Below the pieces are notes generated by a model. That model searched no databases. It saw only the letters and a program-made list of their open reading frames with translations, and was not told where the DNA came from. Positions 5,840 through 59,245 of a stretch of DNA of 64,000 bases are shown here, in pieces. Source of the DNA: Sycon ciliatum. Lineage: Eukaryota > Porifera > Calcarea > Leucosolenida > Sycettidae. The DNA is taken from NCBI RefSeq assembly GCF_964019385.1, contig NC_088645.1:43848173-43912172 (forward strand), given 5' to 3'. The first letter of the stretch is position 1. Every line of letters begins with the position of its first letter. Made by a program: the position numbers and the translations under genes.

Positions 5840-5975
5840 AAGAAAAAATCGACTGTCACCACCAGGAATCGAACTAGGGACCCTATATACTCAATCTGCG
5901 GACAGAACTGTTTCGTCCTTTGTGGACTCGTCAGCGCAGCACAGAGGAAATGAAGCCGAACCTGATAGCAATGGA
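5840..5975 (-). mobile_element. Hammerhead + tRNA-like small retroelement, copy 1
   Basis: Read on the minus strand: a segment ending in CATTTCCTCTGTG, a complete hammerhead (5896-5939), then GGGTCCCTAGTTCGATTCC (a Pol III B-box) and CTGGTGGTGACAGTC. The same blocks occur in different order relative to the ribozyme in the copy near 10.9 kb, giving an inferred circular or tandem unit of about 167 nt. This fits the small metazoan retrozymes and hammerhead SINEs known from the literature. It lies in the host gene's inferred intron. Confidence 0.65.
5896..5939 (-). ncRNA. Type I hammerhead ribozyme, ultrashort stem III
   Basis: All core elements are present on the minus strand. Stem I is CTGCG paired with CGCAG. 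The box CTGACGA precedes stem II, GTCC/GGAC closed by a five-base loop. GAAA follows, then stem III ACA/TGT around GTTC, and the cleavage triplet ends in C17 before CGCAG. The CUGANGA and GAAA residues and the A15.1-U16.1 pair are intact, so it should be able to self-cleave, although stem III of 3 bp usually works best as a dimer. Best preserved of the three copies. Confidence 0.85.
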
Positions 5976-6613
5976 ATCTGCGTGCGGAGCTCCAAGATGC
6001 ACCGTTTCTTGGTTGCCAGGACGACACGCGGGGTTATGTTGCCCAGGGCTGCAGATGATGGAGACCAGGTGAATAGAGCCGGACAGTCGTTTGTAATGGT
6101 CAGAGGTCAGCATGTTGGGGAGCCTGCTGAACCCTCCCCGACCAACCGCGTCAGCACAAGCGCCACTGCAAACGGATCCGATCAACAGCAACGCATGTAC
6201 CGCTTTTTCTGCAGCAGCCGCAGAGTACCAGCCACGCAGTTCAGTGCTGCCAACGTCAGCCAGTTAGTTGTAGAATGTCAGTACCATCGGTCAGTGTTGT
6301 GCAATTATGTTATCGCATGAGCTGATTTTTTAGTAACTCGTGGTGTTAGTGGACATTATAGCTTAACTTGTAGTTCCTTGGTCCATTTTTGTTTTGTATA
6401 AATCAACCCTTAGCTCTCCATCAGAGTCCATCCTTTGTTATCAACTGTACACACTACATATAAGCTGAGGACTGAGTGTTTATGGGAGATCAAACCCCGA
6501 GGCAAAAACCGAGCCGAAGCCGAGGTTTTTTGCCGAGGGTTTTATTTTTCCCGTTCATTTTAACTCAGATACTGAGCCAGTAATAAATGTAAAACAGTGA
6601 AGAAACATAATAT

Positions 6614-10859: not shown

Positions 10860-11020
10860 GTATTGGGTATACAGATTCAATCTACGAACAGAACAGTTTC
10901 GTCCGTTGTGATCTCATCAGCGCCGCACAAGGGAAATGAGGGCGGACCTGATAGCAATGAAATGTAAACTCTCCAAATCCAAGTTTTAACCAGAAAACAA
11001 TTGACTGTCATCACCAGGCA
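10860..11020 (-). mobile_element. Hammerhead + tRNA-like small retroelement, copy 2
   Basis: On the minus strand this copy begins with CCTGGTGATGACAGTC, which in copy 1 lies after the ribozyme. It then runs through TTTCATTGCTATCAGGTCCG into a degraded hammerhead at 10882-10926. Overlaying the two copies shows a unit in which the segment after the ribozyme is also the segment before the next one, as expected for tandem or circular RNA. Confidence 0.6.
10882..10926 (-). ncRNA. Degraded hammerhead ribozyme
   Basis: CTGATGAG and CGAAAC are kept, but stem II is mismatched (ATC opposite GGAC), stem III has a T-T clash, and stem I pairs over only about 3 bp. Probably inactive. Confidence 0.6.
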
Positions 11021-17220: not shown

Positions 17221-17400
17221 AACAACGTTTAGTAATCTTGTCCAGCCGTTTGCTGGCAAGGATGATGACGACCTAGAGGAGCTCTGCGCCATGTTGGACA
17301 CCGGGTCGGCTCGCACGTTGGTGTCATCGAGCTTCGCACTTGCTGCTAAGCTGAGTAGCAATGTAGCATCGATGAAGGAGGAGAGGCGGCTTGCCCTGGA
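17221..17400 (+). pseudogene. Older gypsy-like element: protease part, left of insertion
   Basis: Open frame with an aspartic protease active site (LDTGSARTLV; the codons start at 17297) after an acidic linker. It is cut at CTGGA by the chromovirus insertion and resumes at 22486 in the same frame, so the chromovirus is the younger insertion. Confidence 0.75.
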
Positions 17401-17583
17401 TGTAACAGTTTTCCCCTGTTCTCTATAACTTTACACTCCCTCGCACCTCATGCGTCTTACGCCTGTCTATTAGCACCTTCATTGGCGCCATTGCCACATG
17501 TATACTATCACATTTTGCATATAACTGGTCGAGGCACGCTCAACCAGGCCTCTTACTTTTCAAGTTTGATTAAACCTGTTACA
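17401..17583 (+). repeat. 5' LTR
   Basis: 183 bp starting TGTAACAG and ending CTGTTACA, a short inverted terminal word. It matches the 3' LTR base for base as read. The LTR is very short for a gypsy element, and no TATA box is obvious. Confidence 0.95.
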
Positions 17584-17584
17584 C

Positions 17585-17602
17585 TGGTAGCAGAGGATGG
17601 TT
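17585..17602 (+). promoter_or_regulatory. Primer binding site, tRNA-iMet
   Basis: TGGTAGCAGAGGATGGTT starts one base after the 5' LTR and is complementary to the 3' end of animal initiator tRNA-Met (including CCA) over all 18 positions, from my knowledge of that tRNA. It also overlaps the proposed gag ATG at 17597. Confidence 0.85.
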
Positions 17603-18436
17603 ACTACTCTGCTTTTGGCAGGTGTTCTGGTCGCTCTGCTTACGCTCCTCGTACTCGTCGTTCGGCTGATAAACGATATCAAGACCGCTCAGCGTGTTAG
17701 CCAAGGAAACCGAACGATACATCCGAACTCGGAACCGTGGGAGCCAACACACCGCCTTACGAAAGAGCCGCCTGTGTTTGGAGGAGATTCCGCTACATTC
17801 AAAGAATGGACGTTTGCAATGGACATGGCCCTACGGTCGTTGGCACTCCCAAATGCGGCACAGAGGGTCGACTACGCGGCAGGATTTTTGACTGGAAACG
17901 CTCGTCTTTGGTTGATAGCGGCATTGGAAGCTAACCAAGTGTTTTCCGACTGGCCTGCTCTGAAAGCGGCACTTGGCGATGTGTACGGACCACGGCACAA
18001 CGAGGAAACATCGCGTATGGGACTAATTTCCGCAGCGCAGCGCGGGTCGCTGGACGCATACATTGCTGCTTTCACTCGCCTCAGCCTGCAAGTGCCGGAA
18101 ATCGACCACCACACCAGAGCGCTGCTGTTCGTCAGGGGTCTAGTGCCGCACATCCAGCGACAGGTCATGCGTGAGCATCCACGTACCCTGGAGCAAGCTG
18201 TCATGGCAGCAAACACCGTGGAGCAGTCGTCAGGGCCACCGGCGTCGGGGCCACCAGCCAGTAGAGAGTCGCGTTCCGTGCCCAGCTTCCGTGGTCAGGG
18301 CCTCCGCAAGCTGACGGACCAAGAGCGTGTCCAACTGCGAGCAATGGGACACTGCTTTGCTTGCAGGAAGCCAGGCCACCTCGCTAAAGACTGTACTGAG
18401 GGTGGACAGCGCTACCCAAACGCTGGTCGCCAGTAA
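17597..18436 (+). CDS. gag: Gag polyprotein of chromovirus
   Basis: 279 residues. The N-terminus is hydrophobic (about residues 3-20). The central capsid-like region includes FGGDSATFKEWTFAMDM and VYGPRHNEETSRMGL, as in the retrotransposon gag family. A zinc knuckle CFACRKPGHLAKDC (CX2CX4HX4C) lies near residues 254-267 and should bind nucleic acid. The ATG overlaps the primer site, so a slightly later start cannot be ruled out. The stop is TAA, and pol is in the -1 frame. Confidence 0.92.
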   Translation: MVTTLLLAGVLVALLTLLVLVVRLINDIKTAQRVSQGNRTIHPNSEPWEPTHRLTKEPPVFGGDSATFKEWTFAMDMALRSLALPNAAQRVDYAAGFLTGNARLWLIAALEANQVFSDWPALKAALGDVYGPRHNEETSRMGLISAAQRGSLDAYIAAFTRLSLQVPEIDHHTRALLFVRGLVPHIQRQVMREHPRTLEQAVMAANTVEQSSGPPASGPPASRESRSVPSFRGQGLRKLTDQERVQLRAMGHCFACRKPGHLAKDCTEGGQRYPNAGRQ

Positions 18437-21400
18437 GAAAGGGGGTGCGCTTACTGGCGACGACCCAAGCGCCCACGCCGATACCAGTCGCTAACCGGTT
18501 CGGAGCTCTGGAGGTTGAAGACGTTGCTCTCCAGGAACCTACGGAGCCGGAGACACCCATAGCTGTAGGAAATTGTCCCGTTGCAGAAAGGTGTCATGTC
18601 AGCAACGTCAGCGTCGGCAATGAACCTGAACACGACCTACTGCGCATACAGGGAAGAATCGGCGGTCGCCGTGCAGTGATGCTGATAGATTCCGGTTCGA
18701 CGCATGACTTCATTGCAGACAGTTTTGTTCGAAAGCATCATCTTGACACGGATGCAAGCTCAGCAGTGCTGAGCGTAACATTGGCGGACGGCTCGACCAG
18801 CGAGGTCCCGCAGATTTGCACACGCACGCTAAGGGTGACAGTCGGGGGCTTCAGTGAGGAACAGCACTTTACTGTGTATCCCCTGACTCGCTACGACGCT
18901 ATTCTTGGCAAGCCGTGGCTTACAAGGAACAACCCCAGCATCAACTTCCGTACGAACGAAGTTCAGTTGGACGGTGAGCCCTTTGTTGCCAAATTGCCTT
19001 CAGCTAACCCGCCGACAGCCGACCGGCCATCTGTGGAAAGCATGTTTATCAGTGGCCGACAAGCTCGTCATGCCCTGAGGAGTGGAGCCGAGGGGTTTCT
19101 TGCATGGGTCACTGCTGCAAACGAGGAGAATCGTTCCGGGCCACAACTCCAGGAATCAGAGCAACAAGACATCCAGAACCTGCTCAAGAGGTACCAGGAT
19201 TTATTTCCAGACGAGCTGCCGAATGAGCTTCCACCGAAGAGACCAGTCGACCATGAAATCCAGATAGAAGATGGAGCCAGACCACCGTCTCGACCCGCCT
19301 ACCGCCTGCCGAAACCAGAGATGGACGAGCTCCAGTCACAGCTATCAGAATTACTTGAGAAGGGATTCATTGAGCCAAGTAAGTCGCCATACGGTGCACC
19401 TGTGTTTTTTGTGAAAAAGTCGGATGGTACTCTGAGAATGGTGTGCGATTGGCGAGAATTGAATAGAATTACGATCAAAAACAAAGCTTGTCTTCCTAAT
19501 ATTGATGACTTATTCGACACGATCCAGGGCAGTGCATATTTCTCCAAGTTGGACTTGCGGTCAGGCTACAATCAAATCAGAATTCAAGACTCGGATGTTT
19601 CTAAGACGGCCATTAACACGCCGTTCGGCCACTTCCAATTTAGAGTCATGGGATTCGGGCTGACTAATGCCCCGGCCACCTTTCAGTCACTCATGAACTC
19701 TATTCTGCAACCGCATCTCCGAAAATTCGTTGTAGTATTCTTGGATGACATTCTAGTTTTCAGCAAGACCTGGGAAGATCATCAGCATCATCTTCAAACA
19801 GTTCTAGAAACACTTAGAAATAGTGAGCTGTATTGCAAACAGTCTAAATGCGAATTCGGCGTGAGAGAAGTTCTCTTCTTGGGGCATAAAATCAACGGCA
19901 CATCAATTTCCCCTGATCCCAAGAAGATAAGTGCTGTGGAAACATGGCCAACTCCGTCGTCAGTAACTGATGTGAGGAAGTTTCTTGGCTTTGCAAACTA
20001 TTTCCGAAGGTTCATAGACCGACACTCGACCATCTCTCGTCCATTAGAAGAAATCACCGGAAAAAATTCACGCTTTGAATGGAGCGCTGCTAGACAGAAG
20101 GCATTCGAGTCTCTAAAATCAGCATTACTCGAGGCGCCAGTGTTGCAACTGGCCGATGTTGAGAAAAGCTTCATGGTAGAAACTGACGCAAGTGACTTTG
20201 CCGTGGCGGGTGTGCTCCTGCAGCAGGGAGAAGATATGGATTTGCATCCCGTAGCCTATTGTAGTCGGAAACTGTCAGCTGCAGAACGCAACTATACTGC
20301 GGCCGAGAGGGAAACGTTGGCTGTGGTATTTGCATTAAAGTGCTGGAGAATCTATCTATTCCGCCACTTTGACCTGATGACTGATAATATGGGTGTTGTC
20401 TATTTACGAACCAAACCGACTCTCACCAAGCGTGAGGCAAGATGGGTAGAGTTTTTAGCTGACTATGACTTTACGGTCTTTCACAAACCAGGAAAGAAAA
20501 ACATTGCCGACCCGCTTTCACGCCGTCCAGATCTGTTCAGTGATTCTGAAATAGGCGGGTCATCCTATCCTCCTAACATTCAGTTGAATGCCATAGAGCA
20601 TACCCTAGAGATTAATCCAGACTTAGCGCAGTTAATTGTAAGCGGTTACAAGTGCGACAAGGATCTTGCTCCCATTATCAGGAGACTGAAAAATTCAAGC
20701 CATGACAATCTGCACGACCGTTACCTTCTAAATGAAACACCCGGTTATCTTTATCTCAGATCTTCACCACAGAACAGGTTATGCATTCCAAAGAGTAGCA
20801 AACTCCGACTCGCCCTGCTTCAAGAATACCATGACTGTGTGACTGCGGGGCATCCCGGTCGAGATCGCACCTATTTCAGACTCTCTAGATATTTCTATTG
20901 GCCCAGAATGGGACTGGATGTAAAGGCGTTTGTCAAGTCATGTGACGTCTGCCAACGAGTTAAAGGCGGCCAGCTAAAAACTGGTCTCTTGCAGAATTTA
21001 CCAGTGCCCAGTCAGCCGTGGGCGGATATCTCGATGGATTTTATCATGGGTTTGCCTAGGACCGATACAGGTCATGATGCTATATATGTATTTGTAGACC
21101 GCTTGACAAAGTGTGTACATTTAGCACCTACTTCCTCTACTATTGACGCTAAAGGAAGTGCTGATCTGTATATCCAACATGTATTTCGACTTCATGGTTT
21201 GAGTTCTAGTATTGTATGTGATCGTGATCCAAGATTTACGGCAGCATTTTTTCAGGAATTGTTTGATCGCTTAGGAACGAAACTAGCATTTAGTACTGCC
21301 AATCACCCTCAGACAGATGGCCTAACTGAACGAGTAAACAGAATAGTAGAGGATGTGCTGAGGGCTTTTGTAAATCATAAACAAGATAACTGGGATATGC

Positions 21401-22098
21401 TCCTACCTCTCTGTGAGTTTTCTATCAACAGCGCTACTCAATCATCTACAGGAAACACACCGTTCTTCTTAAATTACGGTCTAAATCCCAGAGCGCCACC
21501 CGACTTCCTCAACCCTATTCAGGGAGGCAGAGATTCAGCTGATTGGTTGCAAGCAAGACAAGACGCGGTCAAGATCTCACAAGATGCGCTAGTGGCAGCT
21601 CAAGCTCGTCAGGCCTTCTATGCAGATCGGACAAGGGTCGAGGGAAAGCTGAAGGTGGGAGATTTGGTAATGGTCTACCGGGATTTCCTCCTGACTCCTG
21701 AAGCTCGGGACCGACCATCCCATAAATTACGCCCCAAGTGGTTTGGCCCCTTTCCTATAACCCATGTGGTCGGCCCGAATGCCTACAAGCTCAAGTTGCC
21801 TCATACCAGCCGCTGTCACCCGGTATTTAATGTGTCGGCACTCCGTGCCTACGAGAAGAACGCTATTCCTAATAGGAGACAGCCTACGCCTCCGCCTATC
21901 ACGGACCTTGATGGTCATGCCCGCTATGTGGTGGAGAACATTCTCAGTCACCGCCGCCGGCAGAATCAGCTTCAGTACCTAGTCAAGTGGCAAGGCTACT
22001 CTGATGCCACTTGGGAGCCTGAACATTATTTGTTGGATGAATCTGGTAATGACATTGTTCCACTTCAGAAGTACAAAACCTTGGCTTCTGCCCGCTGA
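18400..22098 (+). CDS. pol: Pol polyprotein (PR-RT-RH-IN-chromodomain)
   Basis: The open frame spans 18400-22098; counted from the GTG at 18445 it has 1217 residues. Protease: LIDSGSTHDF, active site near residue 82. RT: FSKLDLRSGYNQI near 366 and the catalytic FLDD near 432. RNase H: ETDASDFAV near 578 and TDN near 646. Integrase: HHCC zinc module (HPGRDR near 803, CDVC near 833) and DDE residues near 863 (D), 926 (DRDPRF) and 962 (E of TDGLTERVNR). A chromodomain occupies about 1164-1199 (VENILSHRR, YLVKWQGYSDATWEPE) and probably directs integration to particular chromatin. All catalytic residues are present, so it is plausibly active. Confidence 0.95.
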   Translation, partial: GWTALPKRWSPVRKGVRLLATTQAPTPIPVANRFGALEVEDVALQEPTEPETPIAVGNCPVAERCHVSNVSVGNEPEHDLLRIQGRIGGRRAVMLIDSGSTHDFIADSFVRKHHLDTDASSAVLSVTLADGSTSEVPQICTRTLRVTVGGFSEEQHFTVYPLTRYDAILGKPWLTRNNPSINFRTNEVQLDGEPFVAKLPSANPPTADRPSVESMFISGRQARHALRSGAEGFLAWVTAANEENRSGPQLQESEQQDIQNLLKRYQDLFPDELPNELPPKRPVDHEIQIEDGARPPSRPAYRLPKPEMDELQSQLSELLEKGFIEPSKSPYGAPVFFVKKSDGTLRMVCDWRELNRITIKNKACLPNIDDLFDTIQGSAYFSKLDLRSGYNQIRIQDSDVSKTAINTPFGHFQFRVMGFGLTNAPATFQSLMNSILQPHLRKFVVVFLDDILVFSKTWEDHQHHLQTVLETLRNSELYCKQSKCEFGVREVLFLGHKINGTSISPDPKKISAVETWPTPSSVTDVRKFLGFANYFRRFIDRHSTISRPLEEITGKNSRFEWSAARQKAFESLKSALLEAPVLQLADVEKSFMVETDASDFAVAGVLLQQGEDMDLHPVAYCSRKLSAAERNYTAAERETLAVVFALKCWRIYLFRHFDLMTDNMGVVYLRTKPTLTKREARWVEFLADYDFTVFHKPGKKNIADPLSRRPDLFSDSEIGGSSYPPNIQLNAIEHTLEINPDLAQLIVSGYKCDKDLAPIIRRLKNSSHDNLHDRYLLNETPGYLYLRSSPQNRLCIPKSSKLRLALLQEYHDCVTAGHPGRDRTYFRLSRYFYWPRMGLDVKAFVKSCDVCQRVKGGQLKTGLLQNLPVPSQPWADISMDFIMGLPRTDTGHDAIYVFVDRLTKCVHLAPTSSTIDAKGSADLYIQHVFRLHGLSSSIVCDRDPRFTAAFFQELFDRLGTKLAFSTANHPQTDGLTERVNRIVEDVLRAFVNHKQDNWDMLLPLCEFSINSATQSSTGNTPFFLNYGLNPRAPPDFLNPIQGGRDSADWLQARQDAVKISQDALVAAQARQAFYADRTRVEGKLKVGDLVMVYRDFLLTPEARDRPSHKLRPKWFGPFPITHVVGPNAYKLKLPHTSRCHPVFNVSALRAYEKNAIPNRRQPTPPPITDLDGHARYVVENILSHRRRQNQLQYLVKWQGYSDATWEPEHYLLDESGNDIVPLQKYKTLASAR
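18415..18421 (+). promoter_or_regulatory. -1 ribosomal frameshift slip site CCCAAAC
   Basis: The heptamer C-CCA-AAC is in register with gag (codons CCA AAC, 18416-18421) and fits X-XXY-YYZ. Shifting -1 enters the pol frame, which is open from 18400, and bypasses the gag stop at 18434-18436. pol has no ATG at its beginning. A downstream GC-rich stretch with CGCC/GGCG words could form the stimulatory structure. Confidence 0.8.
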
Positions 22099-22283
22099 GT
22101 TTTGCAGTTGAACTTCTAGTTTCACCTTACACATTTGTTGAGCTTATTACACTTTATTTGCATGGAGTTTCAGTCGTCTTATTGTGTTACTTCAGTGCGA
22201 AGCCTTTTTTCGTCTCGCACGTGTTTGCGCTTATTGTACTCTATTCCACTTGAGCATTTGGGTTATAAGCTCCTTCCTCTCCA

Positions 22284-22297
22284 TAGGAGGGGGATGA
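22284..22297 (+). promoter_or_regulatory. Polypurine tract
   Basis: AGGAGGGGGATGA lies directly upstream of the 3' LTR and would prime plus-strand synthesis. Confidence 0.8.
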
Positions 22298-22480
22298 TGT
22301 AACAGTTTTCCCCTGTTCTCTATAACTTTACACTCCCTCGCACCTCATGCGTCTTACGCCTGTCTATTAGCACCTTCATTGGCGCCATTGCCACATGTAT
22401 ACTATCACATTTTGCATATAACTGGTCGAGGCACGCTCAACCAGGCCTCTTACTTTTCAAGTTTGATTAAACCTGTTACA
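22298..22480 (+). repeat. 3' LTR
   Basis: 183 bp, no difference from the 5' LTR as read, followed by the target duplication CTGGA. Confidence 0.95.
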
Positions 22481-22485
22481 CTGGA

Positions 22486-25250: not shown

Positions 25251-25819
25251 GCTGAAACTGACACAGTGTACAGGGTTGTACATTGGCACTGCTGATGAGA
25301 AAAAGAACGTGGCTGCTTAAAATCCTCATGGCTACAGACCATCTACAGCGGTATGAAGAACTTACATGGTGAAGTGGCTGTGCTATGTCGAGCGACCAAA
25401 GACAGAATGAGAAAAGCCAAGGACGCGTGAAAGCCTGTTCAATTGCCACAAATATCATTCAGAAACAAACAGAAAGTCATGGTGATGTCGACTAAATATT
25501 TGATGTCAGAAGGTTTTCTGAAAGCTCTGTTTTTCTTCTTCTGATTTATTTATTTATTTATTTATTTATTCAACATCTCCTGGCTCGTCGTAAGACTGCC
25601 ATTATGTATGAGAAGGCGCGTGGTAGCCAACCACGGCGAACTAAATAATAAGGAGAGAAACAAAAGAGTGATGATTGTAACATAGCAATATTGAGTATTT
25701 CGCTCCTGCTCTTGTAACAGTTGGGCACTCTTGCGTGGGTTAGTGCCTTTGCTGTTTGTGTTATTCAGAGCTCACTGACTTGTCAGTTTGAGCACTCTGG
25801 CAAGGTACGTTCGGGCCTG

Positions 25820-25945
25820 GTTTAAATCTGGCTTTGGAAAATTTATTTTTCATTGCTACCAGGTTCGGCATCATTTCCTCTGTGCTGGGCTGAGGAGTCC
25901 ACAAAGGACGAAACAGTTCTGTGCGCAGATTGAGTGTAGTCATAG
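25820..25945 (+). mobile_element. Hammerhead + tRNA-like small retroelement, copy 3
   Basis: Shares GGTTTAAATCTGGCTTTGGA and TTTTTCATTGCTACCAGG with copy 2, and the hammerhead with copies 1 and 2. The B-box part is missing. 25251-25819 contains ATTT repeats (25545-25570) but no gene. Confidence 0.6.
25885..25928 (+). ncRNA. Hammerhead ribozyme, probably inactive
   Basis: CTGAGGA, stem II GTCC/GGAC, GAAA and stem III ACA/TGT match copy 1, but the cleavage-site base is G instead of A, C or U, and stem I is only partly complementary. Confidence 0.7.
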
Positions 25946-39378: not shown

Positions 39379-39661
39379 AAGAAATTGCGCTAAAGCCATA
39401 TCGGGTGTTAGCGGGGGGCAGAACAAGAGCAGCAGAGACCTGGTCACGGGTGATGGCTGCAGTGCGAGCACCATGGGCGCGCAAGGTAAAGCGGTCTCGC
39501 AGAAGAGGACTAGCAAGTCCATTCAGGCAGCGGTAAACAAATACATAGGTTTTGAAGTTGAGGCGTTTCTCAAGGGCGTATAAGTTAGTATGACTGTATA
39601 GAAGAGTGGTGGGAGTCGTGAAGTTCGTGCGACCATCAAACAAACCTACTATGCGGTACAC
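39245..39661 (-). pseudogene. LINE reverse transcriptase C-terminal fragment
   Basis: Minus frame of 138 codons: LYSHTNLYALEKRLNFKTYV, FVYRCLNGLASPLL and LVLPPANTRYGFSAISYYP match the common C-terminal region of CR1/Jockey/Rex-like RTs (L..RR.K...Y..C.NGL.P..L). Only this part remains. Confidence 0.65.
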
Positions 39662-39682
39662 TTCATACCCGTCTACACAACG

Positions 39683-40534
39683 ATGGGTTCGTTCACGGTG
39701 TTGAAGGACGTCCTACCAACCCATCATTTAAGTCATGTAATCTACAACTTTGAATGCCGGAATTGTGCTAGCCGGTATGTTGGTAGGACTGTTCAGCACC
39801 TGAGCGAACGCATCAAGCAACACACTCCTTTACACATTACCCCACGTAGCGCACAACTGGAGCGTCCCACGCGGGGAAGACCCCGTAAACAACCACTACC
39901 TCCGCCAACACAGGACCCAGCGTCCCACTCAGCAAGTCCACTATTGGCTCCCGTGGCCATGACCAAGTCACTCCCTCCACCAGCGGAGGTGGATGTGGCT
40001 TTGGCGACGCCACGTGTGTTGCATGCAGACACGTTTGCGTCATCATCGCTTGCTGCATCACCGGCAGAGACGACAACAATACCTACCTCAATATCAACGA
40101 GACCCAGAAGAACAACTGCGAATTACACCATGACCTATTTCAGTACGGAAGTACAGAGCCAACGGAATGCACAACAGGAGCGTGAGACAAGGGATGGGAG
40201 GAGACGGGACCTGATTGCTCCAAGGCAGGACGTCGTTGAGGAGGATTCGACCAGTGAGTCCAGTGAGTCCGGTGAGTGTGAGAGCGAGAATGATTGTGTG
40301 AGTAAGAGTGGGTGCGAGCGTGTGTTTTCTAGTAGGAAGTCATCAGTGTGTAAGCATCTTGTATCTCGTCCTGATTGCTGCAAGGTGTATTCTGATTCTT
40401 CTTTTTCTGTTTTGTGCCGTGCTCGTCATGGTTATAAGTTGCAGTTGAGTGTGTTAGAAGCTGTTTGTCAACGTATTCATAAGCCTAATTCGTGTGTCCA
40501 GAAGGACAGCATTATTCGTTTGAAATTGTTCTAG
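39683..40534 (+). CDS. PLE GIY-YIG endonuclease and C-terminus (partial)
   Basis: 283 residues, open to the 5' truncation. GIY-YIG core: HVIYNFECRNCASRYVGRT then LSERIKQHTP (Tyr, Y-V-G-R and Arg conserved), near residues 18-50, which nicks target DNA in PLEs. A low-complexity Pro/Ser/Thr and acidic insert follows. The end (HLVSRPDCC...FSVLCRARHG, LQLSVLEAVCQRIHKP, LKLF) matches the family C-terminus. The RT domain is absent. Confidence 0.8.
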   Translation: MGSFTVLKDVLPTHHLSHVIYNFECRNCASRYVGRTVQHLSERIKQHTPLHITPRSAQLERPTRGRPRKQPLPPPTQDPASHSASPLLAPVAMTKSLPPPAEVDVALATPRVLHADTFASSSLAASPAETTTIPTSISTRPRRTTANYTMTYFSTEVQSQRNAQQERETRDGRRRDLIAPRQDVVEEDSTSESSESGECESENDCVSKSGCERVFSSRKSSVCKHLVSRPDCCKVYSDSSFSVLCRARHGYKLQLSVLEAVCQRIHKPNSCVQKDSIIRLKLF

Positions 40535-40750: not shown

Positions 40751-40785
40751 CTTCCTGAGGAGTGTTGTGCGAAAACTAGTTCTAA
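40751..40785 (+). ncRNA. Hammerhead-like motif in PLE 3' UTR
   Basis: CTGAGGA, a short imperfect stem II, GAAA, then the palindromic stem III AACTAGTT and C. Stem I pairs CTT with AAG after one mismatch. Probably weakened. Confidence 0.45.
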
Positions 40786-40971
40786 GTACGATTTTTTGTT
40801 CATCATTTTCTCCATATCACATTTCTTCTTTCTTCCATGTTCTTCACTGCCTTCGTATCCACTCGTTTTTTGAATACAATAAAAGCCTTTGTGAAATGTC
40901 GGTTCAGCTCGTTCTGTTGATTGCAATTCTAAAACTATTGTCGCCTCGACGCCTTTTTACATTATTTCAGA

Positions 40972-41781
40972 TTGAGGTACACACAAAATCAGATAGATTT
41001 GCTGAATGCTGTGCTGAGGAAACGTTTCTACTGCCGTAATGTCGCGTATAACGTTTCATTTCTGACACGGTGTCTGAACACTGGTGTCTGTCCCTGTGGT
41101 GTTCAGAAACGCGTTCAGAAGACCAAGGCCTATCATTCCTTATCAATAGAGAGAGTATTTCTCAAAGATGATATTGCCAGGTCGCGTGACTCTTTGTCCA
41201 ATGCCCGCGTCCAGTTTAAGTACTTATATGACCGTGCGCGTTCGTTTTTGTCTACCCATGACTTCCTACGCTTCTCGCTGCTCTTATCCGAAAACGATGA
41301 TAGACAACGGATACGACTGATCGCTAAGTATGACAAGACCTTCACCTGGCTTCGAAAGAAAATATATGGCCAGGTTACCTTCAATCCAAACAGCATCATC
41401 AACCTGTCAACCTTGGAATTGACTGATGTGCAAAAAGAACTCCTTTCCCGCGGAACAGACTTCGGAATTCCGCCTTCTTGTAACAACAAAGAAATCGTCA
41501 TGACAGAATTTGAACTGTTTTACAGGAAACTATTATGCTTTTCGCCGATTTCCGAGGCTCAACAGTCGGTGTGCGCAGCTAAACTTAGAGCAGAGGCTGA
41601 AGAGCATTCCGAACAATTACCAGACCGAAGTTCTTTCTCATTATCTCGCGAGCATCTCAAAGCCCGTAAAGAATTGCGAGCGAATAAGGACATCATCATA
41701 ACCAGACCTGACAACGGTCGTGCTACAGTCATTATGAACAAAGCTGACTATGTTGACAAAATGATTATTAGTATCTCCTAG
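40972..41781 (+). pseudogene. PLE ORF, N-terminal part
   Basis: 269 codons: a Cys-containing start, a helical region, INLSTLELTDVQKELLSRGTD (the N..TL.LT..E..LL.RG..F signature), EFELFYRKLL and DIIITRPDNGRATVIMNKAD (the D-I-V-I-x-x-P-D-K/N-G-x-x-x-V motif opening the PLE RT). It stops at the point where the retrozyme-like insertion begins; the catalytic RT is not present. Confidence 0.8.
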
Positions 41782-41917
41782 ATTAAATATTGCGACAGAG
41801 CTTTCGGCCATATTTTCAATTCATTGCATTCCCAACTCATCACAACCACGCGCTCTTCAGCCGAACCATACAGACACCAGCAAGGACACTTCCGTTGAGA
41901 GATAATATTGCTCCACG

Positions 41918-41963
41918 CCTCTAGCCAGCTGTTTCGCTCCCTGTCAGAGCTCATCAGTAGAGG
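41918..41963 (-). ncRNA. Hammerhead ribozyme, damaged copy
   Basis: Equivalent to the ribozyme at 42761-42806 but with G in place of U16.1 (TGGC rather than TGTC before the cut), which breaks the A15.1-U16.1 pair. Likely slow or inactive. Confidence 0.8.
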
Positions 41964-42760
41964 ATAATAATGATGATAATGGAGGAATGATCATTCTTAT
42001 ACACCAGAAATGGCGCAAATGCGCGCTTTCCACATATATCAATGGCATATGCAAGCTGCTAAAATGGTAAAGTGTGAGAACAGCGATAAATAATCATAGT
42101 ACGCGCTCATTGGTGGAGAAACACACCACACAAGCGACGAAAATCTGACGCGGAATACTGATGCCAATGGAAAGTACATGTATGTTGTTTATTATTATGA
42201 TGTTGCAAAGTCCATGTATGCAGGCCAGGCGAGACTCACCGCCGAGATCCCCCAACGCGACAGGCTCGGTTGCCGTTCAGGATTCACACCGACCTGTCCG
42301 CCCGTCAACAGGATCGACAGGGGGAGGCCACACTGATGCCGATGTCGATGCACACCACGAAACTTGTAGTCGTGAGTGTGATACTAACAGGTCTAGTAGC
42401 AACCACTGACAAACGAGAGGCCAGCTGGGGCATTCACTCCAGTCAGGGATGCTTGGTCGACGCTTCGTGTCAGCAGCTCAGCTCAGTTTGATCAAAGATG
42501 TTGCAGATGTGTCTTGCTTTCCTCCTTCCTTCTTCACCGACTCGTCTTGTCACCTCTCCTTCTTGCTTCACCGACTCTTCGTGTCCACTCTGCTCTGCCA
42601 CTAACGGCGCATTAAAACTTCAGAACTAAATATTGCGACAGAGCTTTCGGCCATATTTTCAATTCATTGCATTCCCAACTCATCACAACCACGCGCTCTT
42701 CAGCCGAACCATACAGACACCAGCAAGGACACTTCCGTTGAGAGATAATATTGCTCCACG

Positions 42761-42806
42761 CCTCTAGACAGCTGTTTCGCTCCCTGTCAGAGCTCATCAG
42801 TAGAGG
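42761..42806 (-). ncRNA. Type I hammerhead ribozyme, intact core
   Basis: On the minus strand: stem I CCTCTA/TAGAGG (6 bp, perfect), CTGATGAG, stem II closed by GCTC/GAGC, GAAA, the self-complementary stem III ACAGCTGT, then C at the cleavage site. Every conserved core residue is present. The extremely short stem III suggests activity as a dimer, as shown for PLE-type hammerheads. Confidence 0.9.
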
Positions 42807-42842
42807 ATAATAATGATGACAATGGAGGAATCTCCTAGATTA

Positions 42843-46404: not shown

Positions 46405-46506
46405 CGTTGGAGCAACCAACTTCATTATTATTATTATTATTATTATTGCAATGAAAAATATCAATTGTGCACTCATAACCATGTATAAACAATTAAAATG
46501 AAACAA

Positions 46507-46542
46507 TTCCAGAACGTTTTCGTGTGACCATCATCAGTGGAA
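46507..46542 (-). ncRNA. Hammerhead-like motif (left arm)
   Basis: Mirror copy of 46725-46760. Confidence 0.6.
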
Positions 46543-46724
46543 CATCGTCACATAGTAAGAATCACTAAAACAACCAGTTATATAGCTAGAGTAATATGAA
46601 AAGAAGCGTGAGAATGCAGCACGCGTTATGCATAACCGCTAGCTGTGCTGCATTCTCACGCTTCTTTTCATATTACTCTAGCTATATAACTGGTTGTTTT
46701 AGTGATTCTTACTATGTGACGATG

Positions 46725-46760
46725 TTCCACTGATGATGGTCACACGAAAACGTTCTGGAA
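46725..46760 (+). ncRNA. Hammerhead-like motif (right arm)
   Basis: Stem I TTCCA/TGGAA perfect, CTGATGA, a short stem II (TG/CA around GTCA plus an extra C), GAAA, the palindromic stem III AACGTT and C at the cleavage site. A core match with an atypically small stem II. Confidence 0.65.
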
Positions 46761-46857
46761 TTGTTTCATTTTAATTGTTTATACATGGTTATGAGTGCAC
46801 AATTGATATTTTTCATTGCTATTTTACGACTGTTGTCTCCTCGTCGGTTATTTAAAT

Positions 46858-46871
46858 TATTATTATTATTA

Positions 46872-46904
<33 letters not shown>

Positions 46905-47120
46905 GCAATTTCAAATTTGGACTTAACGGAGAATTTCAAAGTTTTTAGGAAATTAGAGGCCACATGCCACCTACTGCTCTTTTCTCTCCGAAACTCAACA
47001 CTTGCAAGCCAGATATGAAAGAAAGAAAAAATCATCAGTCACACCACCGGGACTCGAACCAGGGACCTTGCTATTCGCGAGCAATGCTCTAACCAACTGA
47101 GCTACAGTATGACTCTTATC
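46858..47120 (-). mobile_element. tRNA-derived SINE with (AAT)n tail
   Basis: On the minus strand: a tRNA-like head (47040-47111), a body of about 135 bp containing CTTTCATATCTGGCTTGCAA, then (AAT)n at 46858-46906. The body is repeated inverted at 47219-47323 with its own (ATT)n tail but no tRNA head. Confidence 0.8.
47040..47111 (-). tRNA. tRNA-like head of SINE
   Basis: Folds as a 72-nt cloverleaf: 7-bp acceptor stem (with wobbles), A box TAGCTCAGTTGG, D stem GCTC/GAGC, anticodon stem TTGCT/AGCAA and B box GGTTCGAGTCC. The anticodon loop CGCGAAT lacks U33, one T-stem pair is mismatched, and it continues into a SINE body, so it is not a functional tRNA gene. It should still work as a Pol III promoter. 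Confidence 0.8.
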
Positions 47121-47218: not shown

Positions 47219-47346
47219 GTGTGACTGATGATTTTTTTCTTTCTTTCATATCTGGCTTGCAAGTGTTGAGTTTCGGAGAGAAAAGAGCAGTAGGTGGCAT
47301 GTGGCCTCTAATTTCCTAAAAATTATTATTATTATTATTATTATTA
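47219..47346 (+). mobile_element. 5'-truncated SINE, inverted relative to the first
   Basis: Same body as 46906-47046 in inverted orientation, ending in (ATT)n at 47322-47346. The pair forms arms of about 99 bp around the tRNA-like head. Confidence 0.75.
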
Positions 47347-50000: not shown

Positions 50001-50908
50001 ATAGCGGAACATGCAGCTCTTTGCTTCAAGAAATCTTTACCAGCCGCTGCTGTAGCTCTCCCACCACTGTCACTACGAGATCCCAGGTGTCTTTTTCTTT
50101 GGCATTACCCCCAGCACAGAGTACGGCTGGCTTTTCTCGGATTGGCTATCTCGCTGCTGACCAGTGGAACATGCCAGAGTGGAATATGCCAGAGTGGAAT
50201 ATGCCAGAGTGGAATATGCCAGAGTGGAATATGCCAGAGTGGAATATGCCAGAGTGGAATATGCCAGAGTGGGATATGCCAGAGTGGAATATGCTAGAGT
50301 GGAATATGCTAGAGTGGAATATGCCAGAGTGGAATATGCCAGAGTGGAATATGCCAGAGTGGAATATGCCAGAGTGGAATATGCCAGAGTGGAATATGCC
50401 AGAGTGGGATATGCCAGAGTGGAATATGCTAGAGTGGAATATGCTAGAGTGGAATATGCCAGAGTGGAATATGCCAGAGTGGAATATGCCAGAGTGGAAT
50501 ATGCCAGAGTGGAATATGCCAGAGTGGAATATGCTAGAGTGGAATATGCTAGAGTGGAATATGCTAGAGTGGAATATGCCAGAGTGGAATATGCCAGAGT
50601 GGAATATGCCAGAGTGGAATATGCCAGAGTGGAATATGCCAGAGTGGAATATGCTAGAGTGGAATATGCTAGAGTGGAATATGCCAGAGTGGAATATGCT
50701 AGAGTGGAGGAGGCTGTTGCCTTCCACTGTTCGTACTTGTACAGATTACCGCTCATTTATTCGCTCATGCGTAACCTCATGCATAACCTCATGCATAACC
50801 TCATGCATAACCTCACGCAGGAACGGACTGCGGCGAAAACCAGTGATAGCTGGCAGGCTGACGGGCGGAAACAGCATGACGAAGGATGGCGGCGGCAGGA
50901 GGGCGTAG
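49975..50908 (+). pseudogene. LINE RT C-terminus expanded by a minisatellite
   Basis: The frame reads LLILLFRCIHSGTCSSLLQE, TTRSQVSFSLALPPAQST, GFSRIGYLAADQWN, then about 36 pentapeptide repeats (MPEWN/MLEWN/MPEWD), then MLEWRRLLPSTVRTCTDYRS. Flanks and repeat share one frame, so the array evidently arose inside the WN-x-LP motif of a LINE C-terminus. A second short repeat (CTCATGCATAAC, four copies, 50764-50815) gives CITS repeats. Confidence 0.75.
50164..50708. repeat. 15-bp minisatellite, about 36 copies
   Basis: Unit CCAGAGTGGAATATG with point variants (CTAGAG, GGGATATG). Variants recur with a 135-bp spacing (GGGATATG at about 50271 and 50406), a nine-unit higher-order period. Open in all frames except stops at the ends. 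Confidence 0.97.
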
Positions 50909-59009: not shown

Positions 59010-59126
59010 TGAAATTGCAATATAGCCTGAGACTACTACATGTATTATACACGCGTGTTGACCTGTACCTTTCCCTAAAAAGGAGTAATTTAAAATAAAT
59101 AAAAAGCTTACGTGGAGATAAAAATG

Positions 59127-59245
59127 TAATCAACGCAATAAATAGAGTAAGCTGCGCACTCAGTACAAACACCATTAGCAAAACATTAGTTTTGCTTATG
59201 GTGTTTGTACTGAGTGCGCAGCTTACTCTATTTATTGCGTTGATT
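59127..59245. repeat. Inverted pair of a PLE 3' terminal block
   Basis: Arms 59127-59178 and 59190-59245 contain GTGTTTGTACTGAGTGCGCA as in the PLE 3' end at 46291-46360. The minus arm continues to the AAGCTT/ACGTGGAGA end; no coding part is present. Confidence 0.75.

Follow-up and report, generated by a model that had tools for sequence, protein, structure and literature searches.

A 1044-bp insertion in the 64,000-nt stretch of Sycon ciliatum DNA that we analysed (the window) belongs to a dispersed family of hammerhead-bearing elements. As read from the genome assembly, the family displays outer ends that are fixed and paired, arms that converge, duplicated target sites, copying through the ribozyme cut site and, in most insertions, near-uniform units. 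We consider it likely that the element is a non-autonomous, non-coding animal non-LTR retrozyme whose unit, about 843 nt long, is unusually large, and that it is mobilised by a Penelope-like reverse transcriptase. Its interest lies in the paired Penelope-integration ends on a hammerhead retroelement, and not in plant-like LTRs in an animal.

Structure of the insertion

The features of the insertion are given below. Unit coordinates (U) run in the hammerhead sense, with U1 at window position 42829 and the cut after U63.

41773..41785, no strand: left target-site duplication, 13 bp at most (9-13 bp given the border ambiguity)
41786..42829, minus strand: whole inserted element, 1044 bp, a single arm with the hammerhead sense on the minus strand
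41786..41986, minus strand: left pseudo-LTR copy, the 3' end of the arm (border U201-203, 'long' end class)
41918..41963, minus strand: left hammerhead, U16.1 changed to G at 41925, probably inactive
41987..42628, minus strand: core of the unit, 642 bp, non-coding
42629..42829, minus strand: right pseudo-LTR copy, the 5' end of the arm
42761..42806, minus strand: right hammerhead, type I, predicted cut between 42767 and 42766
42830..42842, no strand: right target-site duplication

The direct repeats of about 202 bp, offset by 843 bp, that the original prediction had described were borne out: copies of about 201 bp flank the core, and 41784-41988 and 42627-42831 share 99% identity over 205 nt at a spacing of 843. 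The 13-bp target duplication claimed with them, ATCTCCTAGATTA, is indeed found at both borders (41773-41785 and 42830-42842), but its exact length is 9-13 bp, as two bases per border are common to repeat and flank and hence ambiguous on each side. This places the element at about 41786-42829, composed of 201 + 642 + 201 bp. An assembly artefact, named at the outset as a possible source of the duplication, is unlikely, both because a false duplication of the repeat would give no target duplication outside the two copies and because further members of the family are found across the genome.

In length the insertion amounts to 1.24 turns of the 843-nt unit, and its 'LTRs' are the overlap, that is, pseudo-LTRs. 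This follows from the other copies: some have one arm and others two, their 5' ends are scattered, and the number of units varies from about one to eight. The description of the element as complete should be taken with caution, for the window copy consists of one arm, with a long end (U201-203), an arbitrary 5' end and a mutated left ribozyme.

The hammerhead ribozymes

The minus strand of each repeat carries CUGAUGA ... GAAA together with stems I and II. Stem I is the open helix, and the motif is of type I, not the type III of plants. The right ribozyme had been credited with a 6-bp stem I and a conserved core, and it indeed has both, along with a 5-bp stem II and a very short helix III made of 1 bp and the A15.1-U16.1 pair beneath a palindromic AGCU loop. 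A strict hammerhead descriptor run on the 64 kb matched this copy (42761-42806, minus strand) and one unrelated motif (5896-5939), with no match in 200 dinucleotide shuffles. A helix III this short resembles that of amphibian motifs reportedly working better as dimers (PMC7229834; here and below, statements on cited papers refer to the portions available to us).

The expectation of a minus-strand hammerhead in each repeat was correct as to the motif itself, but the left copy has lost U16.1. It misses the strict descriptor because this position is G, the base at 41925 turning its cleavage triplet GUC into GGC, and to judge from these letters the left ribozyme is probably dead. Lacking U16.1 there, the window copy could release no unit-length RNA today; by its own sequence, the locus could be cut only at the predicted 42767/42766 site. 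Covariance models, proposed as a check, matched both copies (RF02275, right 24.0 bits, left 18.2 bits), yet both scores lie under the gathering score of 52, and at the gathering threshold Rfam finds one tRNA and no hammerhead in the window. Hammerhead scores at other loci are also under gathering, the best being 30.5 for RF00163 against 34 (L043). The minimum-energy structure predicted (-15.1 kcal/mol) is a different one from the hammerhead fold (-9.9 kcal/mol).

Among the complete ribozyme copies from 38 other loci, 115/115 retain U16.1 and C17, the residues of cleavage, and 111/115 retain the other core letters (column table); these copies are non-independent within a locus, and the likely duplicates L014 and L017 are counted in. 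The ribozyme is not clearly better conserved than the rest of the unit, 119 of 797 sequence windows being as low. An outer stem I helix, which would have made the ribozyme border the 5' limit of the element, was considered and rejected (p 0.43; other copies have scattered 5' ends).

A family of non-coding tandem units

Genome-wide copies and tandem forms of the 843-bp unit, for which a search had been suggested, were recovered: at least 108 matches, with as many as about eight direct units in a copy. Of 891 candidates, 40 were scored, so that the family counts are lower bounds and biased toward close copies. Our sample comprises 38 of about 40 match clusters. Full units (n = 50) measure 829-855 nt, about 843, although match lengths may be up to 12 nt short. 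Copies consist of direct units and extend over anything between part of a turn and about eight turns, mostly in two convergent arms whose 3' ends face outward, while the 5' ends are scattered. In three loci (L015, L021 and L039), which form a subfamily, the units measure 838 bp and lack 5 nt right at the short start site described below. Exact-pattern scans of viral contigs and genome contigs gave 0 matches.

The original reading of a non-coding, non-autonomous hammerhead retroelement is upheld by the many copies, their target duplications and a unit delimited by ribozyme cuts. Pfam gave no match in the three core/repeat frames tried, the unit contains no reverse transcriptase or GIY-YIG open frame, and the frame from the hammerhead ATG is intact at 61 aa in only 21 of the 50 full units. 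The predicted 843-nt circle, with 59% of its bases paired, has a minimum free energy of -242.6 versus a shuffle mean of -263.9 (z +2.4) and is less well folded than 60/60 shuffles.

Outer ends and their pairing

The outer 3' ends form two classes, short (U160-174) and long (U199-220), at two sites about 105 and 140-150 nt beyond the ribozyme cut. We drew the class limits with the ends already in view; the raw end list includes internal stops that indels produced, and each end has some bases in common with the target. L014 and L017 were dropped from the pairing count as likely segmental duplicates with common flanks. The remaining 36 loci comprise 23 two-arm insertions with both ends classed, six two-arm insertions with one end in neither class, and seven single-arm insertions. 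One short and one long end were found in 23/23 of the first group. The single-arm loci have six long ends and one short, and the window copy stands outside these counts. Between the two start sites, no shared hairpin folds clearly better than shuffles.

The paired short and long outer ends are the Penelope 'tail' signature. Among the titles, abstracts and passages of papers covered by the literature search, there is no report of short/long pairing in retrozymes.

Target sites

A non-simple direct repeat of at least 9 bp borders 18 of 38 loci (17 without L044, where the repeat lies off the border), whereas 5 of 177 mock borders reach 9 bp. Border repeats are simple, mostly AAT, at 12 loci, measure 5-6 bp at three and are absent from five. 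Target duplications in the family are 9-16 bp.

Duplications of this length, together with AAT-rich sites at a third of the loci and the presence in the window of LINE-type frames with reverse transcriptase and endonuclease domains, would suit a SINE-like passenger of a LINE-type target-primed reverse transcriptase. We regard this as improbable, given that the family has two paired internal starts and an arm on each side of the target, as do three local Penelope-type insertions, and that, to our knowledge, these are not LINE features. Still less credible is satellite DNA whose arrays would have spread via unequal crossing-over, the window copy being a small remnant: direct tandem units, uniform within arrays, are what it would predict, but target duplications at the outer borders, inverted arms of one variant and dispersal over many contigs led us to reject the satellite as the sole explanation.

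The template is sealed at the cut site

A cDNA begun at about U168 or U205-211 has about 105-150 nt to go before it reaches the cut site. At that point a template cut to a linear monomer would run out; nearly all arms continue, which means that the template was sealed. Of the arms begun at a classed end, 57/60 cross the cut site (38 loci, duplicates in), and 1/60 5' ends lies within 5 nt of it, compared with 0.78 expected.

Same-strand units within an insertion differ by a median of 0.17% (56 pairs) and opposite arms within an insertion by 0.68% (35 pairs), as against 3.05% between loci (2973 pairs), in a comparison that leaves out L014 and L017. The within-insertion difference is below the between-loci difference in 20/21 comparable loci. 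Within-insertion uniformity is lacking in L016 (3.38% vs 3.31%) and slight in L027 (2.94% vs 3.42%). The 6.8-kb arm of L024 spans about eight turns, whose segments differ by 0.04% on average. From these low within-insertion differences, most insertions look like copies of one sequence variant, made from an RNA sealed at the cut, which would be either a ligated circle or an uncut multimer. Later array homogenisation could add to the uniformity of the units.

Were the template an uncleaved linear multimer from tandem arrays, the family would be a Penelope-mobilised satellite that does not need its hammerhead. We think this possible but somewhat doubtful. The cut-site crossing of 57/60 arms fits uncut RNA equally well, tandem source arrays exist, and hammerhead mutants of the anole Penelope element insert unaffected in vitro in the available account (PMC11167929). 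The eight-turn arm of L024, on the other hand, is simple to obtain from a circle (array homogenisation could produce it too), and the retention of U16.1 and C17 in 115/115 complete ribozyme copies of the other loci likewise speaks against a hammerhead that is not needed.

Penelope-type neighbours

Three Penelope-related features of the window are listed here, the last for comparison:

39602..40534, plus strand: fragment lying upstream, weakly matched by GIY-YIG (PF01541, E 0.002, 18.8 bits, cut-off 22.6)
40933..41781, plus strand: target frame holding the element, no Pfam match
46445..46870, no strand: two-arm Penelope-type leader insertion with hammerheads, in ATT repeats, with one shorter and one longer outer end

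We take the frame at 40933-41781 to resemble the N-terminal part of a Penelope-like ORF. The GIY-YIG fragment is followed by a Penelope-type hammerhead and then by this frame, an arrangement that, on its order, would be expected of a partial Penelope tandem. No reverse transcriptase domain belonging to this Penelope-like element was identified, and when the Penelope frame was compared with viral contigs, two stretches fitted the pattern, none of them confirmed.

In each of three two-arm Penelope-type leader insertions (46445-46870, 59091-59245 and one in L024), one end is shorter than the other; as judged by eye, the two lie about 20-40 nt apart. Other Penelope-type copies are not two-armed within the sequence examined, and that of L038 ends at neither site. 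The start region of the element (U140-222) has no significant similarity to four local Penelope-type leaders (best p 0.07). Paired Penelope-like ends in the family and similar ends in these three leaders make the idea of a Penelope helper testable.

Minimal Penelope-type hammerheads occur in the window at 40755(+), 46230(+), 46518(-), 46730(+) and 47440(-), the first with one stem I pair broken, and also in L016, L024, L026, L034, L038 and L040. By eye they fall into about five sequence families, between which stem I is changed on both sides (CTTC/GAAG, GATTC/GAATC, TTCCA/TGGAA, TCCT/AGGA, TTCA/TGAA), and several are followed by a leader possibly encoding roughly MS.QL..LIA.L..LSPR.LF. At 8237-8419 of L024, sub-gathering Rfam matches to microRNA precursors on both strands are the palindrome between head-to-head Penelope-type arms, and thus a false lead for annotators.

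The available accounts of Penelope-like elements describe several of the same features. In the anole element, reverse transcription starts internally at two adjacent sites, the stretch between them being the genomic 30-40 bp 'tail', and both target strands are cut and extended (PMC11167929). In vitro, its top and bottom strands showed no difference in start site, so that strict pairing goes beyond what it predicts (PMC11167929). In Adineta vaga, Penelope pseudo-LTRs measure 193-218 bp, an inverted pseudo-LTR can flank the element, one of two inverted pseudo-LTRs carries a 31-bp tail, duplications are 8-10 bp or none, and unrelated sequences have been captured between pseudo-LTRs (PMC3846280). 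Penelope-like elements have been named strong candidate helpers of animal retrozymes, as candidates only (Cervera and de la Pena 2020, PMC7229834).

Comparison with known systems

The family resembles animal non-LTR retrozymes, as described in the portion of the source at hand, in being non-coding, in the type I hammerhead that delimits the unit, in its direct tandem units, in having no LTR, PBS or PPT, in target duplications of more than 4 bp and in a GC content below 50% (PMC7229834). It departs from them in the size of its unit, which at about 843 nt is roughly double the published one (about 150-450), in its convergent two-arm insertions with paired ends, and in a predicted circle that, unlike described retrozyme RNAs, is not highly self-paired (PMC7229834). 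With Penelope-like elements it shares a hammerhead near the start region, pseudo-LTRs of about 200 bp, an inverted arm, an optional 30-40 bp tail and AT-rich targets, their described duplications being 8-10 bp (PMC11167929, PMC3846280); unlike them, it has no open reading frame, and its start region is without detectable similarity to the four local leaders. The hammerhead repeats recall the W-elements and SMalpha repeats of Schistosoma, where one W-element has direct repeats and a presumed target duplication; the accessible part of that source contains no paired-end two-arm structure (PMC8490949).

A plant-like LTR layout, the reading first given to the insertion, is contradicted. Plant LTR retrozymes likewise have a non-coding core between direct repeats with hammerheads, and their circles, of 600-800 nt, are of similar size, but in the available description they carry type III hammerheads, 4-bp duplications, a PBS (tRNA-Met) and a PPT, and have a Gypsy helper (PMC4918200). 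Here, the hammerhead is of type I, inspection by eye of 40 nt at either border of the core revealed no PBS or PPT, the duplication measures 9-13 bp in the window (9-16 bp in the family), and the repeats are pseudo-LTRs. Even with repeats round a unique core of plant-like size and a Gypsy-type element with identical 189-bp LTRs in the window, it is thus barely conceivable that a plant-type LTR retrozyme is moved in this animal by a Ty3/Gypsy element: the core borders, the multi-unit arrays and the inverted two-arm insertions with paired ends already speak against it.

Other features of the window

The Gypsy-type LTR retrotransposon lies at 17399-22484(+); its 1232-aa frame has protease, reverse transcriptase, RNase H, integrase and chromodomain matches, and it is probably a recent insertion. 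A third hammerhead family consists of dispersed repeats of about 90-120 bp with 80-93% identity, at 5889-5977(-), 10877-10993(-) and 25817-25935(+), carrying CTGANGA...GAAAC; only the first copy passes the strict descriptor. At 46942-47111(-), a tRNA match (47039-47111) is followed by a stretch of about 104 bp that recurs inverted at 47219-47322(+) with 99% identity, perhaps a tRNA-derived short element. A 15-bp minisatellite occupies 50163-50708 (36 copies, 97% matches), and two window frames have laminin EGF domain matches, in keeping with animal DNA.

Proposed mechanism and implications

In the mechanism we favour, that of a Penelope-mobilised retrozyme, the minus-strand transcript would be cut at its hammerheads and the monomer ligated into a circle, or a multimer would be left uncut. 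A Penelope-like reverse transcriptase/endonuclease would then cut AT-rich DNA, often AAT repeats. On each target strand, cDNA would begin at a fixed internal position of its own, one of them about 105 nt and the other 140-150 nt downstream of the ribozyme cut. Copying would carry on along the sealed template through anything from part of a turn to about eight turns, until the two cDNAs meet head to head; in single-arm copies such as that of the window, one arm would have been lost or never made. The circularity of the RNA, the identity of the helper and the present activity of the element are what we infer from these data.

More specifically, and as a tentative proposal with a little under an even chance, retrozyme circles may be direct templates of the Penelope reverse transcriptase, two enzymes acting on neighbouring sites of one closed RNA and each extending one target strand, for up to eight turns. 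If so, the strict pairing of short and long ends would hold for Penelope integration in general and could be read off genome sequences. The long arrays would be a natural case resembling rolling-circle reverse transcription. With tens of insertions at hand, the integration rules of a poorly understood class of retroelements can be read, and Penelope-style insertion of a non-coding ribozyme element would link animal retrozymes to the enzyme long suspected of mobilising them.
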